30,448 nucleotides of DNA from a virus. Shown in pieces: positions 661-16,670 of this stretch. Positions within the stretch are counted from its first letter, which is position 1; each line of letters opens with the position of its first letter. The notes under the pieces are model-generated. The model was not told the DNA's origin. It saw only the letters and a list, made by a program, of their open reading frames with translations, and did no database searches. The translations under genes were made by a program, and so were the position numbers. Location of the stretch: IMG/VR virus record IMGVR_UViG_3300049830_000130, positions 1 through 30,448 of that record, one strand, 5' to 3'.

Positions 661-897
661 TTATGGTTTCTCCTTATGTCTCATCTTACACGCACTATCC
701 TGTGCATAGTAATCCATGAGAGGTGAACCGTGTTGAATGATATCTGCCAGATGTTTCCATTCTGGCTCTGCTTCGGGAAAACAGTTTAATGCTCTGTTAA
801 GCAGATTTAAGAAAGAAGGAATTGAAGTCTCAGGAATAGAGAGGATCAATCCTTGGTTTGGTTCCCGTTTATATTTAATATCACTGTAGGTTGGCAT
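661..897 (-). CDS. hypothetical protein, 78 aa
   Basis: This small gene lies between the HNH endonuclease and the helicase/primase. I chose the ATG at 897 because AGGA lies 8 bases upstream; an earlier in-frame ATG at 966 would give a long overlap with the endonuclease gene. The protein begins MPTYSDIKYKREPNQG, has a central EPEWKHLADIIQHGSPLMDYY stretch and a basic C-terminus (KMRHKEKP). No family is recognised. It overlaps the end of the endonuclease gene by 17 bases, which fits the packed leftward transcript. Confidence 0.55.
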   Translation of the reverse strand: MPTYSDIKYKREPNQGLILSIPETSIPSFLNLLNRALNCFPEAEPEWKHLADIIQHGSPLMDYYAQDSACKMRHKEKP

Positions 898-1366
898 TGG
901 TATTCCTGGAGAGATGATAAGCGAACTCGCCCTGATATTTAGCTGCAGCTTTTTCATAGGCTGCACTTGCTTGCTCTTCTGTTACGAATACACCTAAATA
1001 CTTACGTATTCCATTAACTGAAATGCGAGCCATGTATCCATCTCTAGCCTTATATACACCCTTGGCTAACAAACCATTACGTAACTTTCCTCTGTTAGCC
1101 ATATTCTGCGCACGCGTTGCCACTCTTAGGTTATCCCTGGTATTATTCAAGGTATCGCCATCTCGGTGGTCTACGTCCAATGCGGGAAAGTTCAGTACGT
1201 AATTTGATAATCGCTTTTTTCTGTGCGGTCCTGTCGTAAATGTAACTATCTTATAGCCATCTGGTCTAGTATATACTGACAATCCCCAGTGCATTACATC
1301 TAGAGCTATGTCGATGTCTACAAGTACTGTTTGACCTGTAGCAATTAGCTTAACTGACATGTGCAT
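881..1366 (-). CDS. HNH homing-type endonuclease with AP2 DNA-binding domain
   Basis: The protein has 161 residues. The HNH core is at residues 65-81, VDHRDGDTLNNTRDNLR, with D66-H67 and N79 as likely metal/catalytic positions, followed by the usual RVATRAQNMANR helix. The C-terminal third (about 100-150: GVYKARDGYMARI, YLGVFVTEEQASAAY) is an AP2/ERF-like DNA-binding domain. HNH-AP2 proteins are common free-standing homing endonucleases in phages; they cut cognate DNA lacking the insertion and so spread themselves. Its ATG overlaps the polymerase stop (TAATG), and a second ATG two codons on (1360) is an alternative start. Its place directly behind the DNA polymerase gene is a favoured site for such elements. 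Confidence 0.9.
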   Translation of the reverse strand: MHMSVKLIATGQTVLVDIDIALDVMHWGLSVYTRPDGYKIVTFTTGPHRKKRLSNYVLNFPALDVDHRDGDTLNNTRDNLRVATRAQNMANRGKLRNGLLAKGVYKARDGYMARISVNGIRKYLGVFVTEEQASAAYEKAAAKYQGEFAYHLSRNTNANLQ

Positions 1367-3797: not shown

Positions 3798-3891
3798 TGG
3801 TGCGAGTGGTGGGATTCGAACCCACAGTGTGATCGTTAATCTGTGTCTGATTTTAAGTCAGGTGCGTCTCAACCAATTTCGCCACACTCGC
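3798..3891 (-). tRNA. tRNA-Leu (anticodon UAA), CCA encoded
   Basis: The reverse strand folds as a class II tRNA. The acceptor arms are GCGAGTG (3891-3885) and CACTCGC (3808-3802), followed by discriminator A and an encoded CCA ending at 3798. The anticodon loop CTTAAAA holds TAA at 3855-3853. A long variable arm is typical of tRNA-Leu, and the T arm is GTGGG-TTCGAAT-CCCAC. It would read UUA and UUG. It lies only 17 bases before the DNA polymerase start and just after a terminator, so it is probably cut out of the polymerase transcript. Confidence 0.95.
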
Positions 3892-7057: not shown

Positions 7058-7588
7058 CTAGAACCCAAGTGAGGCAGTAGTTACCGGACCCTTCTTCGCC
7101 TTAGTGCCGGACGTTGCAGACTTGATTGTGATTGCTGCGAGATCAGTATCAACAACCTTTTCCAGCCCGCTGATAACTACTTCCATCTGCGACTCAGAGA
7201 GGAGAGTTACACACTCAGGATATGTGCGAAGAGTAGCCCAGATATCATGAAGTAGGCGAGGCATACTAGGATGCGCATCGTGAATTGCTACCGTGAGTTC
7301 CTGAATAGAATCTGCCACCCGTTGGAAGTTGACCGTTCCCGCACTTTCCACGCTTGCTGCGGATTGCAACTCAGATTTGCTGCTTTCTGCACTTGCTTTC
7401 GCTGCGGCTTCAAGACGAAGTAAGCCAGAATTGACGACTCCCGCCCCGGGCGAGACTGGTTGCGTTGCTTGCGAGTGGAGTTGTTGGTTCGCATGGTTGA
7501 TTTCCTTTGATTGAATATCACTTACTTGCTGCTCGGGCGGTGCAAACTTTGCTCTAATTGCATCTAGCTTAGCGCTATTAAGTCCCAT
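7058..7588 (-). CDS. hypothetical protein with MGLNS N-terminus and LGF C-terminus
   Basis: The protein has 176 residues. The ATG at 7588 is preceded by GGGGAAATAATC. It opens MGLNSAKLDAIRAKF, nearly the same as the SF1 helicase N-terminus. A Gln/Ser/Ala-rich linker follows, then a compact helical C-terminal domain (HDAHPSMPRLLHDIWATLR, then ECVTLLSESQMEVVISGLEK). It ends with a Lys-rich segment and ASLGF. The domain is not recognised. The shared ends suggest it binds the same partner as the helicase or as the other LGF-ending proteins. Confidence 0.8.
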   Translation of the reverse strand: MGLNSAKLDAIRAKFAPPEQQVSDIQSKEINHANQQLHSQATQPVSPGAGVVNSGLLRLEAAAKASAESSKSELQSAASVESAGTVNFQRVADSIQELTVAIHDAHPSMPRLLHDIWATLRTYPECVTLLSESQMEVVISGLEKVVDTDLAAITIKSATSGTKAKKGPVTTASLGF

Positions 7589-7608
7589 GATTATTTCCCC
7601 TAGTCCAA

Positions 7609-7842
7609 TCAATCCAGTTCATCGTATAGTCCTTTCTTCTCTGCGATCCACTCACTGATAACTAGATTATCTTCTTCATCTGCGTTAGCTGAGCGACAGA
7701 TACTAGTTACTTGGGACAGTGGAAACCAGCTTTGCCCGCTGATATCATAAGGTTTCATTCCGGGCGCAGTCAGCAGAGAACTGTATTTAAACAGGATAGC
7801 TTTATCGGATTCAGCTTGTATGATACCAAATATAGTAGGCAT
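7609..7842 (-). CDS. hypothetical phage protein, 77 aa
   Basis: It begins MPTIFGIIQAESDKA at the ATG at 7842 behind GGAG. The protein carries SWFPLSQV and VISEWIAEKKGLYDE, a pattern I recall from a common small phage protein family of unknown function with a WxPxSQ...EWxAxKKGL signature. The start sits 2 bases from the upstream stop and the stop lies just before the next gene's SD, so it is part of one transcript. Confidence 0.75.
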   Translation of the reverse strand: MPTIFGIIQAESDKAILFKYSSLLTAPGMKPYDISGQSWFPLSQVTSICRSANADEEDNLVISEWIAEKKGLYDELD

Positions 7843-8640: not shown

Positions 8641-9336
8641 TTAGAAGCCCAGAGCATCCGAAGTAATGACCGAATCTTCCGCCTTCAGTTCATCCGCCTT
8701 CTTGGTGAGGAACTCCAGAATCGGAGTGTACTCTTCCAGATCAGGCGTATTCGAGCCGACGAAAATGGCGATGGTTGCCATGAGGTTTTCGATAATCTTC
8801 TTGCGGTCCGGATTGCCAGTCAGCGGACGGAACTTTTGCACCAGCACAGAAACGCGAGCGGCGCACATTTCCGGAGTGGATTGCGAAAGAGCCGGCATAA
8901 CTGCAACGTAAGCCTTGGCGAACTTTTCCCAAAGTTCCTTAGCAATGCTGCTGACTCCGCGAATACCTTGCGGAACCTTGCTGATCGCATCGAACGTGAA
9001 CTTGTCCCAAGGAATGGTTTCTTGCGAAGCGTTCGGATTGTCCGAAACATAGCTTCGGACTTCGCCGATCACCACTTGCGCAGCGGCTTGTTGCAGCAGT
9101 TCGAATGCCTTCTTGCCATCAACAGTTTCTGCATTGCTGAGAATCTGGATCAGGCCTTGGTAGGACGGAACCGGAATCTCAACTTCAACTGCGGCGCGCT
9201 GGAAACCGGTGTCATCCTTGTTGAATCGGAAACGCTGCTTTTGCGGGAAAGTCAGGCCAGCAGTTTGGGCAGCTGCGAGCGGGACAACACTTGCGCTGGT
9301 ATCGGTGGCGGCTTGGTCGGTGGATTGGAGACCCAT
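8641..9336 (-). CDS. hypothetical protein, 231 aa, first gene after a strong promoter
   Basis: It starts MGLQSTDQAATD behind GAGGTAA. Residues 45 onward look folded: a strand-rich start (VEVEIPVPSYQGLIQIL), a helix (FELLQQAAAQVVIGEVRSYV), then an all-helical part (KELWEKFAKAYVAVMPAL, AARVSVLVQKFRPLTG, IIENLMATIAIFVG, EYTPILEFLTKKADEL) and an acidic tail ending DALGF. I know similar phage proteins, always of unknown function. The acidic tail with terminal Phe recalls SSB and T7 gp2.5 tails that recruit partners, but that is inference. Its own sigma70-like promoter suggests high expression. It is probably a distant paralogue of the protein at 15113-15766. Confidence 0.85.
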   Translation of the reverse strand: MGLQSTDQAATDTSASVVPLAAAQTAGLTFPQKQRFRFNKDDTGFQRAAVEVEIPVPSYQGLIQILSNAETVDGKKAFELLQQAAAQVVIGEVRSYVSDNPNASQETIPWDKFTFDAISKVPQGIRGVSSIAKELWEKFAKAYVAVMPALSQSTPEMCAARVSVLVQKFRPLTGNPDRKKIIENLMATIAIFVGSNTPDLEEYTPILEFLTKKADELKAEDSVITSDALGF

Positions 9337-13878: not shown

Positions 13879-14330
13879 TGCGGTTCCTTTCGATTGGGGA
13901 AGTGTGGAGTGTGCGGCGTAGCGCCTTCACTGTCAAAATTAAATTCGGGATCGATGAATGGATCAGGCAATTTCTTACCAGCATCTTCAGCTGCCTGTGC
14001 TGCTTTCTGTGCTGCATCCATCTTTGCCCAGAATGCTGGGTCATTATCCATTGCTGCAATTTGCGTAGCTGCATCTACAGTACTAGGACTAGAACTAAAA
14101 CCTAGCCCCTCACTGCTAAATTTCCTGGGGCGCGGTCCTTTCACAACTAGATCAACAGTTGCAGTGCCTTCTTCCGCTTCAATTAGTTTCTTCCGCAGAG
14201 TAACTCGCGCGGTACTGAGTGCAGGTGTTATTTCACTTGGGTCAAGATTACTGGGTTCCGTGAGTTCCAACAATGCTGCAATCTCATAACCACTGAGATA
14301 CAGTCTGTATTTTTCAGTCATGCCGGCCAT
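13875..14330 (-). CDS. hypothetical protein, 151 aa, internal LGF motif
   Basis: The N-terminal part looks folded (KYRLYLSGYEIAALLELTE, ALSTARVTLRKKLIEAEEG, VDLVVKGPRPRKF), followed by a disordered part with SEGLGFSSSP (about 73-82), an Ala-rich helix (WAKMDAAQKAAQAAEDAGKK) and a His/Pro-rich tail. The ATG at 14330 has GGGGAG upstream and overlaps the previous stop (TAATG). The function is unknown. The LGF motif is shared with five other proteins of this window. Confidence 0.75.
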   Translation of the reverse strand: MAGMTEKYRLYLSGYEIAALLELTEPSNLDPSEITPALSTARVTLRKKLIEAEEGTATVDLVVKGPRPRKFSSEGLGFSSSPSTVDAATQIAAMDNDPAFWAKMDAAQKAAQAAEDAGKKLPDPFIDPEFNFDSEGATPHTPHFPNRKEPQ

Positions 14331-14632
14331 TACAGATTCTCCCCTCGCAGAATATGCAATTCATCCCTAGCTTTTTGAATCTCTGCCTCGCTAGGATCAT
14401 AATAGTGATATGAAATCCAAGCAGGATGCAACAAGTATCTGGCACAGTCTTGAGTTATCTCACAAAAGTGCATCAGCTCAATTGCATACTGATAAACACG
14501 AGTGTTGTTAACTGTCTGACCTGCCCGCTTGAGTCGGCCGGCGATTGCATCGTAATAGATTCGTTCCATATAATAACTCTTGCTATTATATGTGATTTGA
14601 ACGAATTTAACTTGATTAATAATAAGTGCCAT
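14330..14632 (-). CDS. hypothetical protein, 100 aa, first gene of a promoter
   Basis: I chose the ATG at 14632 (GGAAAG upstream). A longer version starting at 14668 would begin almost on the predicted transcription start. The protein starts MALIINQVKFVQITYNSKSY, contains a helix with RLKRAGQTVNNTRVYQYAIE, the Cys-containing HFCEITQDCARYLLHPAW, and ends with ARDELHILRGENL. No family is recognised. It heads the transcript that runs through the small genes to the 51-residue gene and beyond. Confidence 0.75.
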   Translation of the reverse strand: MALIINQVKFVQITYNSKSYYMERIYYDAIAGRLKRAGQTVNNTRVYQYAIELMHFCEITQDCARYLLHPAWISYHYYDPSEAEIQKARDELHILRGENL

Positions 14633-14672
14633 GATTTTCTTTCCGCGCGCGGGCGCTGTGGGTTGCATGACC

Positions 14673-14702
14673 CTTATAGCCCGTGCGGCCTGTGCCTGTC
14701 AA
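14673..14702 (-). promoter_or_regulatory. sigma70-like promoter
   Basis: On the minus strand: a perfect -35 TTGACA (14702-14697), an 18-base spacer and -10 TATAAG (14678-14673). Initiation near 14666 leaves a leader of about 34 bases before the ATG at 14632. Like the promoter near 9460, it reads TTGACAG followed by a very GC-rich spacer. Confidence 0.8.
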
Positions 14703-14877
14703 GCCCCTGTCGGTCACCGGGTGGCACCCCCACCCCTTGAGGGGTATAGCTACATTGTTTAGTATCTGCTACACAGTAGCACTCTGCACACCAGTTAGCA
14801 TCTATATCAGGTAACTAGTGTAGTATAGTTCTAAGCGTATTTTTAGGGGGTGCTTAAAATAAACAAAAATCATTAAA

Positions 14878-14977
14878 TACATTCTTTATTCTCTTTAACT
14901 CTTTTTTAGCTACCCCCCTCGCGTAGCGAGTAGTATTGAGAGGGATAGTAAGTGGAATAAAGGGAATAAAGAATGTA
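14878..14977. repeat. 100-base element with 20-bp inverted arms
   Basis: The left arm TACATTCTTTATTCTCTTTA (14878-14897) and right arm (14958-14977) are inverted copies with one difference (T/C, still a G-U pair in RNA). The 60-base centre holds a tight CTCGC-GTA-GCGAG hairpin and CCCTC/GAGGG pairing. It lacks a T tract at its end, so it is not a simple terminator. Confidence 0.8.
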
Positions 14978-15026
14978 GCCTATGCCCTGAGGGGGTGGGG
15001 TACCGCACGGTGCGTAGGCACGGCTC

Positions 15027-15072
15027 ACGTGGGCACAGGCCATGCAGGCCACACAGGCTACGCATCCCACGT
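15027..15072. repeat. three 9-bp iteron-like repeats framed by inverted 7-mers
   Basis: CACAGGCCA, TGCAGGCCA and CACAGGCTA follow each other at 15034-15060. They are bounded by ACGTGGG (15027-15033) and its inverted copy CCCACGT (15066-15072). Confidence 0.65.
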
Positions 15073-15112
15073 AACCCGTACAACCTGCAGGCCTCACACA
15101 AGCGCAGTGAAA

Positions 15113-15766
15113 TCAGAAACCCAAACTCTCCTCAGCAATCTTCGGAGTGATCTTTTCCCGAATACGATCAGCGATCGGGCCACTGAGTTCCGCCAGATTC
15201 AGCACTCGCAACAGTTCCCCCGACTGCGCTGCATTCAGCTTGGGGAACTTATCCGCACAGGCCACGTAACTAGCTTTGTATGCTGCACACTTGCTTGCCA
15301 CATACTGCTGTTGTTCCCCGCTTAGGGATTCATCATTCCAGCCCTTCGCAGCGGAAATCGCGATCACCAGTACCGGTTCCATCTCCATATCAAACCAGCT
15401 TGCGATTCCTTCCGCACTCCAGTTCTTGCTGGTCCAGTAACTGGCCACCGCATCCTCGCTGATATCTTCCCCAGTGAATTCCTTTTGCCCTGCGCGGTAC
15501 AGATTCACGATCAGTTCTCGCCGCAGCGTATTCACGGCTTCATTGAGAATACCGCTGAGATTCCCTGCATCGAATTGCAGTGCAGGCACGCTGACTGCAG
15601 CAACAGTCTTTCCCTTTCCTCGGCCGCCATCCACCTTCTTCTCCGGAATCTTCACCCATTCCATTCCTTCCACTGCATCCAATCCCTTGCCATCCGTTTC
15701 CGTGGCGATGAAGAGAGGATTGTTAGCTTGAATTGCATTGGTGTGAGCGGCAGTAACGGTAGACAT
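15113..15766 (-). CDS. hypothetical protein, 217 aa, C-terminal LGF
   Basis: It starts at 15766 with GGAG 8 bases upstream. After a flexible N-terminus with a Gly/Lys-rich patch (KKVDGGRGKGK) comes a strand (VAAVSVPALQF) and a mostly helical body (GILNEAVNTLRRELIVNLY, DAVASYWTSKNWSAEGIASW, YVASKCAAYKASYVACADKF), ending KITPKIAEESLGF. Length, order of strand then helices, and the LGF end parallel the 231-residue protein at 8641-9336, so the two may be distant paralogues. The function is unknown; it is likely abundant or structural in the replication complex, by inference only. Confidence 0.8.
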   Translation of the reverse strand: MSTVTAAHTNAIQANNPLFIATETDGKGLDAVEGMEWVKIPEKKVDGGRGKGKTVAAVSVPALQFDAGNLSGILNEAVNTLRRELIVNLYRAGQKEFTGEDISEDAVASYWTSKNWSAEGIASWFDMEMEPVLVIAISAAKGWNDESLSGEQQQYVASKCAAYKASYVACADKFPKLNAAQSGELLRVLNLAELSGPIADRIREKITPKIAEESLGF

Positions 15767-15859: not shown

Positions 15860-16387
15860 TTACTCCTGCGGCTGTTGACCGTATTCGTTGATGCACTGAA
15901 TCAGGAATTGCCTGCTCAGTTTTCTCTGAGCAGCATAAGCATCAGCATAAGCAGCATCAGCATAAGCATAAGCATGAGCATGAGCATCAGCAGCAGCATA
16001 AGCATGAGCAGCAGCAGCAGCATAAGCATAAGCATAAGCATCAGCAGCATAAGCATGAGCATAAGCATCAGCATAAGCAGCAGCATCAGCAGCAGCATCA
16101 GCAGCAGCATAAGCATAAGCATCAGCCCGTCTAGAATTTACGTTATTCAAATGTGCCACACTATCTGCACACATTCTTGCAAATCTAACGCATATCTGAA
16201 TCTCTGCCTTCCGCTTACCCAGCAGCCAGCATACATCTGATACGGAATTGCTTTCCACGCATTCTACCAGAGGAAACAGTTCGGAATCCGCCTCCGTTTT
16301 ATTTCTGCCTGCCAGAATAGCTTTCCAGCCCGAGGCGCAGGGATTGAAACTACGGATTTCATCCAACGAGGTCATGAGCGTAGACAT
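15860..16387 (-). CDS. alanine-rich repeat protein, 175 aa
   Basis: The ATG at 16387 has AGGAG upstream. Residues 1-88 look folded (MSTLMTSLDEIRSFNPCASG, then LFPLVECVESNSVSDVCWLL, AEIQICVRFARMCADSVAHL). Residues 90-155 are almost pure Ala alternating with Tyr, Asp and His (AYADAYAHAYAAD). The end is RKLSRQFLIQCINEYG. I recall a broad phage and bacterial family with the same plan: a C-x-x-G-W N-terminal helix bundle, an Ala-rich repeat and a short terminal helix. The function is unknown. The repeat is built of GCT-NAT hexamers and should vary in length between relatives. Confidence 0.75.
   Translation of the reverse strand: MSTLMTSLDEIRSFNPCASGWKAILAGRNKTEADSELFPLVECVESNSVSDVCWLLGKRKAEIQICVRFARMCADSVAHLNNVNSRRADAYAYAAADAAADAAAYADAYAHAYAADAYAYAYAAAAAHAYAAADAHAHAYAYADAAYADAYAAQRKLSRQFLIQCINEYGQQPQE
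15928..16127 (-). repeat. hexanucleotide repeat tract inside a gene
   Basis: About 200 bases built from GCT followed by TAT, GAT, CAT or GCT on the minus strand. Every Ala codon visible in the core is GCT, and the partner codons differ only in their first base, which shows recent expansion of one hexamer rather than selection on protein alone. Confidence 0.85.
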
Positions 16388-16439
16388 AATTAATTCTCCT
16401 GTGTTGACGTGAGTGATGGCTAAATAGAAGCCGAAGGCG

Positions 16440-16670
16440 CTAGAAGTGATACTGTTCAGAATCCCGAGCCGCATTCGCACCAGATACCATCGCCAGTGCA
16501 GTAGCCAGTGCATCCTGCCTATCCGGTGTGAAGTAGTCTGCATCCGGATAATACTTGTTCCGAATAATCAGATTGACCGTGTATTCCTGCAGCTCGCTAT
16601 TCCAGTAGACCTTGGCGGCCGTGAACTGGGTGTATTCAGAGAAAGTGGTGTGAATGAGTCTGTTAGCCAT
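16440..16670 (-). CDS. hypothetical protein, 76 aa
   Basis: The ATG at 16670 follows AGGAATACACATC. The protein starts MANRLIHTTFSEYTQF, has strands (AAKVYWNSELQEYTVNLIIR), an aromatic-acidic patch (YYPDADYFTPDRQDAL) and an Ala-rich helix. No family is recognised. It is the first gene of the leftward block, preceded by a long leader with repeats and possible control sites. Confidence 0.75.
   Translation of the reverse strand: MANRLIHTTFSEYTQFTAAKVYWNSELQEYTVNLIIRNKYYPDADYFTPDRQDALATALAMVSGANAARDSEQYHF

Follow-up and report, generated by a model that had tools for sequence, protein, structure and literature searches.

In iteron-type theta origins such as those of pSC101, F ori2, RK2 oriV and lambda ori, tandem direct repeats lie at one locus beside an AT-rich unwinding segment and are spaced by 17–22 bp, or about two helical turns. 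The pac site of phage SPP1 (pacL-pacC-pacR) has two arrays around a cut, the parC site of plasmid R1 has two iteron arrays around a promoter, and a site period of 7–10 bp is typical of proteins of the MetJ/omega/ParR type. For the phage group comprising PaP2, 119X, PaMx41, Tiera and Shea, no description of an origin was found in a literature search. Here we describe a non-coding element which, with a probability of roughly 0.6 in our estimate, serves this group as its origin of replication and is combined with the main early promoter.

The window, that is the whole stretch of DNA analysed here, has 30,448 bp and is a virus fragment in its source record. Judged by its proteins, it comes from a podophage that has the Fredfastierviridae (PaP2, 119X, PaMx41) as distant relatives. 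The large terminase, portal and helicase link it to the Pseudomonas phages PaMx41, PaP2 and 119X (Fredfastierviridae, Jamesmcgillvirus), and the same three proteins also link it to Polaromonas phage Tiera and EBPR podovirus 3. A comparison of TerL with the PLSDB plasmids gave distant matches only (at most about 30% identity), none of them over 80% of the query. A related phage terminase was also seen inside a MAG labelled Thermoprotei archaeon (L159), presumably because a phage contig was binned wrongly.

Downstream of the element, on the same strand, are genes for a DNA polymerase, a Sak4-like ATPase, an exonuclease and a Dda-like helicase, and the promoter of the element reads toward these replication genes as an early operon. 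No convincing fold match was obtained with the predicted structure of the 217-aa protein encoded upstream (pLDDT 84) or with that of the conserved 351-aa early protein encoded downstream (pLDDT 80). Beside the polymerase gene there is a tRNA-Leu (TAA) at 3798–3891 (minus strand), a tRNA that EBPR podovirus 3 also has, and the small ORF directly after the polymerase gene (881–1366, minus strand) appears similar in sequence to HNH homing endonucleases. The gene at 15860–16543 (minus strand) encodes mostly an alanine-rich repeat of the AYADAYAH type, its DNA being periodic at 12 bp, and similar proteins are present in two relatives (L047 and L053). Three early proteins, encoded at 15113–15766, 8641–9336 and 7058–7612 (all minus strand), end in [AS]LGF; several early proteins of each of the close relatives L041, L042/G004 and L043 carry tails of this type, and both proteins flanking the element in FBPa48 end in DW. 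These shared tails are possibly a common C-terminal docking motif resembling the tail of SSB.

The coordinates of the element are collected in Table 1. Along the minus strand it runs from a 9-bp array through a C-run, a large inverted repeat with its hairpin, the AT tract, the core, a G/C block and the promoter to an inverted array. It lies between the ORFs at 15113–15766 and 14330–14668, both on the minus strand.

Table 1. Positions in the window of the parts of the element and of the genes around it
Feature	Position	Strand	Remarks
Upstream gene, 217 aa	15113..15766	-	acidic/hydrophobic C-terminal tail (ESLGF)
Whole non-coding element	14633..15112	-	~480 bases; from the stop of ORF 15113-15766 to the probable early-gene start
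Left iteron array	15028..15073	-	period 9; includes three 9-mers at 15034-15060
GGCACAGGCC, left member of inverted 10-mer pair	15032..15041	+	
C-run block GGTACCCCACCCCCTC within left array	14989..15004	-	
20-nt inverted repeat, arm 1	14958..14977	.	
Nested hairpin	14914..14944	.	in the 60-nt loop between arms 1 and 2
20-nt inverted repeat, arm 2	14878..14897	.	
AT-rich tract TTTAATGATTTTTGTTTATTTTAAG	about 14853..14877	-	candidate DNA unwinding element
Conserved core	14827..14850	-	G:C block CCCCC, then TAAAAATACGCTTAGAACT
Right G/C-run block CCCCTCAAGGGGTGGGGG	14727..14744	-	
Sigma-70-type early promoter TTGACA-18-TATAAG	14673..14702	-	TTGACA 14702-14697, TATAAG 14678-14673; overlaps right array
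Right array, inverted relative to left array	14660..14696	-	GGCACAGGCC at 14696-14687
First early gene after the element	probable start ATG at 14632	-	
Conserved early gene downstream, 351 aa	12100..13155	-	

The preliminary description had placed a candidate origin at 14845–15072, and the features it listed there are all present: the AT-rich run, the inverted repeat of 20-bp arms with its nested hairpin, the three 9-bp repeats framed by inverted 7-mers, and the non-coding nature of the stretch. The interval given is too short, however: about half of the element lies outside it (14633–14845), and this is where the conserved core, the promoter and the array inverted to the first are found. The arms of the inverted repeat, which spans what had been called a 100-base palindrome, are complementary at 19 of 20 positions across a 60-nt loop. 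None of 60 dinucleotide shuffles of the window reached such pairing (the best gave 17), so the repeat is beyond chance, and there is no second inverted repeat of this kind in the 30-kb window. The three 9-mers are CACAGGCCA, TGCAGGCCA and CACAGGCTA, framed by TGCGTAG and CTACGCA. The 10-mer GGCCTGTGCC/GGCACAGGCC occurs once on each side of the element and nowhere else in the window.

A DNA-level search of the element against the phage collection gave no match, and scanning viral contigs directly for the upstream protein gave none either. Relatives of this protein were obtained through the neighbouring genes, the upstream-gene family having members in 46 distinct relatives. In the relatives fetched in this way the element stands at the same position, and in 39 of 45 the gap that follows the upstream gene measures 200 bp or more. 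They have the plan of the element in common but not its sequence: a short-period array, an AT tract, a G:C block, a core like TAAATATA, TTGACA and an inverted array. The core takes the form CCCCT or GGGGT followed by TAAATATA..ACGCTAAGA, and TTGAC lies 87–148 bp from it in 15 of 22 relatives, about 1.3 being expected by our own estimate. A short core profile alone is too weak to find elements. As a held-out check, three relatives were fetched from another collection after the plan had been fixed, and were not used in writing it; all three loci (3/3) show the plan, with inverted arrays of the GCCAGAAT or TGGCA type. This is a conserved control element, present at the equivalent position in dozens of related phages. 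Matches to an exact-arm pattern in L004 and L005 come without such an inverted repeat and look like chance. In the corresponding gap of Polaromonas phage Tiera (L105, 4960–6600), a segment of ~73 bp with the TGTTCGTTAT repeat in it is tandemly duplicated on the left side.

Nine of 22 relatives, L041 among them, have a G-run in place of the C-run of the core, with the flanks unchanged. Such a swap fits a role of double-stranded DNA better than one of RNA, and suggests that this block forms a boundary at the level of the duplex.

The arrays of the relatives have a period of 7–10 bp, mostly 8. Period-8 arrays were found in 20 of 41 elements, where local shuffles give an expectation of 0.15, although a control region upstream also gives period-8 repeats in 7 of 41, which weighs against reading the element as an origin. 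Array sequences differ from phage to phage, but the two arrays of one phage match, and left and right arrays resemble each other more closely when taken from one genome than from different ones (p = 1e-4 by permutation). The two are mutually inverted, lie about 330–400 bp apart and enclose a long hairpin or an AT-rich segment. The preliminary description had proposed to search for the iteron elsewhere in the genome; in most genomes checked, the repeat unit is found only around the core, an outcome in favour of an origin. In full-length genomes the iterons lie mostly within about 250 bp of it, those beyond being one-mismatch matches (a single one in G005 and two in FBPa48), and the arrays were not found at other promoters in the genomes checked.

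The composition of the two DNA strands changes at the same place. On the early sense strand, the mean GC skew of 22 aligned genomes is about +0.15 upstream of the core and about −0.1 downstream of it, with the zero crossing at the core even though the genes on either side share one strand. At third codon positions the skew is +0.19 in the adjacent upstream gene and −0.10 in the downstream genes (upstream higher in 34 of 37, p = 1e-8), whereas it is near zero in other upstream genes. The AT-skew minimum falls at most about 2 kb from the core in 11 of 12 full-length genomes, and in the window at 15744. A GC-skew peak had been expected at an origin, with a maximum elsewhere counting against one: the cumulative GC-skew maximum of the window, at 13967, does lie less than 1 kb from the core, but of the 12 full-length genomes only 5 have their global maximum no more than 1 kb from the core, and the sign, G-rich upstream and C-rich downstream, is the reverse of that given by the usual rule for origins and hosts. 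Because of this sign, the switch is taken as supporting evidence only; as proof of an origin it was rejected, being of the wrong sign and partly carried by one adjacent gene.

Since its position, its plan, the pairing of its arrays and its AT-rich core are kept in dozens of relatives and in all three held-out loci, these comparisons strongly support a cis-acting, origin-like element. The layout of an origin probably fits it better than does any rival tested. The comparison thus backs the proposal of an origin-like element made in the preliminary description, while the skew sign, the GC maxima (at the element in only 5 of 12) and a packaging site as an unlikely alternative keep it from standing in full. 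The repeats, whose absence from close relatives would have spoken against an origin, are conserved there in arrangement and absent in exact sequence. Weighing against an origin are the skew sign, the GC maxima (5/12), DnaA boxes with up to one mismatch in only 1 of 22 elements, and the lack of a Rep_3 initiator (0 of 23 relatives). A search of 23 relatives for a protelomerase, the enzyme that a telomere resolution site would need, likewise gave none.

How might such an origin work? We propose that a putative phage DNA-binding protein would cover both arrays and bend or loop the segment enclosed by them, upon which the AT tract would melt as far as the G:C block. The DUF3987 primase/helicase of the phage and its family A polymerase could then load at the melted tract. 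DUF3987 is encoded in all 30 relatives checked, and the window stops before it reaches the place that this helicase has in PaMx41. A protein bound to the right array would also shut the early promoter, thereby tying replication to early transcription. The related phage Shea is reported to persist unintegrated in a carrier state, from which an autonomous origin may be expected in the group, and such an origin could also serve that state (PMC13348215).

The strongest rival, though an unlikely one, is a pac site of the SPP1 type, in which the small terminase would bind both arrays and loop the DNA, and the large terminase would cut in the middle of the element and start headful packaging. The two arrays around a central segment resemble pacL-pacC-pacR, and the records of PaP2, 119X and PaMx41 (L116, L106 and L111–L114) open in mid-element at the same base within 1 nt, about 25 bp past the core. 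That these three GenBank records both begin and end inside the element fits a packaging cut and weighs against an origin; published record starts, however, may be copied conventions, and the record of Tiera, the ends of which were sought with PhageTerm, starts beside the small terminase gene and away from its element. The small terminase gene lies about 2.5 kb from the element and its product has a weak helix-turn-helix match, 6 of 12 full-length contigs have a 127-bp end overlap as expected of closed circles, and Shea is reported to be terminally redundant (PMC13348215). The ends of the 12 full-length contigs are scattered, with none at the element. This counts against a fixed end but not against headful permutation, since headful packaging would look the same; fixed ends of the cos or DTR type were rejected because contig ends do not cluster at the element. 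Moreover, a pac site leaves the AT tract, the early promoter and the skew switch unexplained.

It is also improbable that the element is a regulatory switch only, with a phage repressor on both arrays looping the DNA and silencing the early promoter, for example in a carrier state. The conserved promoter is indeed overlapped by the right array, Shea persists unintegrated (PMC13348215), and the repressor could be of the ribbon-helix-helix class because the sites are 7–10 bp apart, a period that fits proteins of the MetJ/omega/ParR type. But RHH_1 gave no match above the cut-off in 23 genomes, the left array has no comparable promoter, the arrays are absent from other promoters, and an operator has no need of an AT tract, a G:C block and a core. 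Far less probable is a partition (centromere) site serving the episomal state: its layout, with arrays around a promoter, would be like that of R1 parC, yet a search covering the ParA type found such an ATPase in none of 23 relatives, the gene after the promoter varies, and the element is also present in phages without a known episomal state. A pure operator or partition site thus accounts for less of the anatomy. A structured RNA, attenuator or terminator between two operons is hardly credible, for although the predicted folds of the two strands are far stronger than those of shuffled sequences (z −4.7 and −4.9) and a transcription boundary is expected here, Rfam matched nothing in the element and only a tRNA in the window, no intrinsic terminator was called in the element, the C-run/G-run of the core changes strand between relatives, and the arrays and paired inverted repeats would be left unexplained.

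If the element is an origin, it may, tentatively, represent a new architectural class, in which inverted arrays of 8-bp sites, an unwinding segment, a strand-neutral G:C block, an early promoter and a putative phage initiator would together serve lytic and episomal replication. Array sequences that change between phages and stay matched within each could be a further mark of this class, with equal reserve. A candidate of ~500 bp with precise boundaries would allow replication to be mapped and the protein that reads the arrays to be found, and would open the way to studying the persistence of Shea as a non-integrated episome. The matched yet divergent arrays are also a natural data set in which the specificity of a viral DNA-binding protein changes along with both of its sites.

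Compared with the iteron theta origins, the element likewise has tandem direct repeats at one locus with an AT-rich unwinding segment adjacent, and repeats that also lie over the promoter of replication genes. It differs in its period of 7–10 bp instead of about 17–22, in having two arrays inverted around a core with a strand-neutral G:C block, and in the rarity of DnaA boxes and the lack of a Rep_3 initiator in its group; because of the spacing, the boxes and the initiator, we do not claim membership in the classical iteron origins. With SPP1-type pac sites it shares two arrays, here putatively protein-bound, around a central segment, but it lies outside the terminase gene, has an early promoter and an AT tract, and shows no fixed contig ends. 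Like R1 parC and the parS-omega operators of pSM19035, it has short-period arrays around or over a promoter; in contrast to them, no ParA was found, the downstream gene is variable, and an AT-rich core lies between inverted arrays. The ori and crr of phage P4 are also two repeat-bearing sites, thought to act jointly with the phage primase-helicase, but these are kilobases apart, whereas the arrays of the element are about 350 bp apart and inverted.
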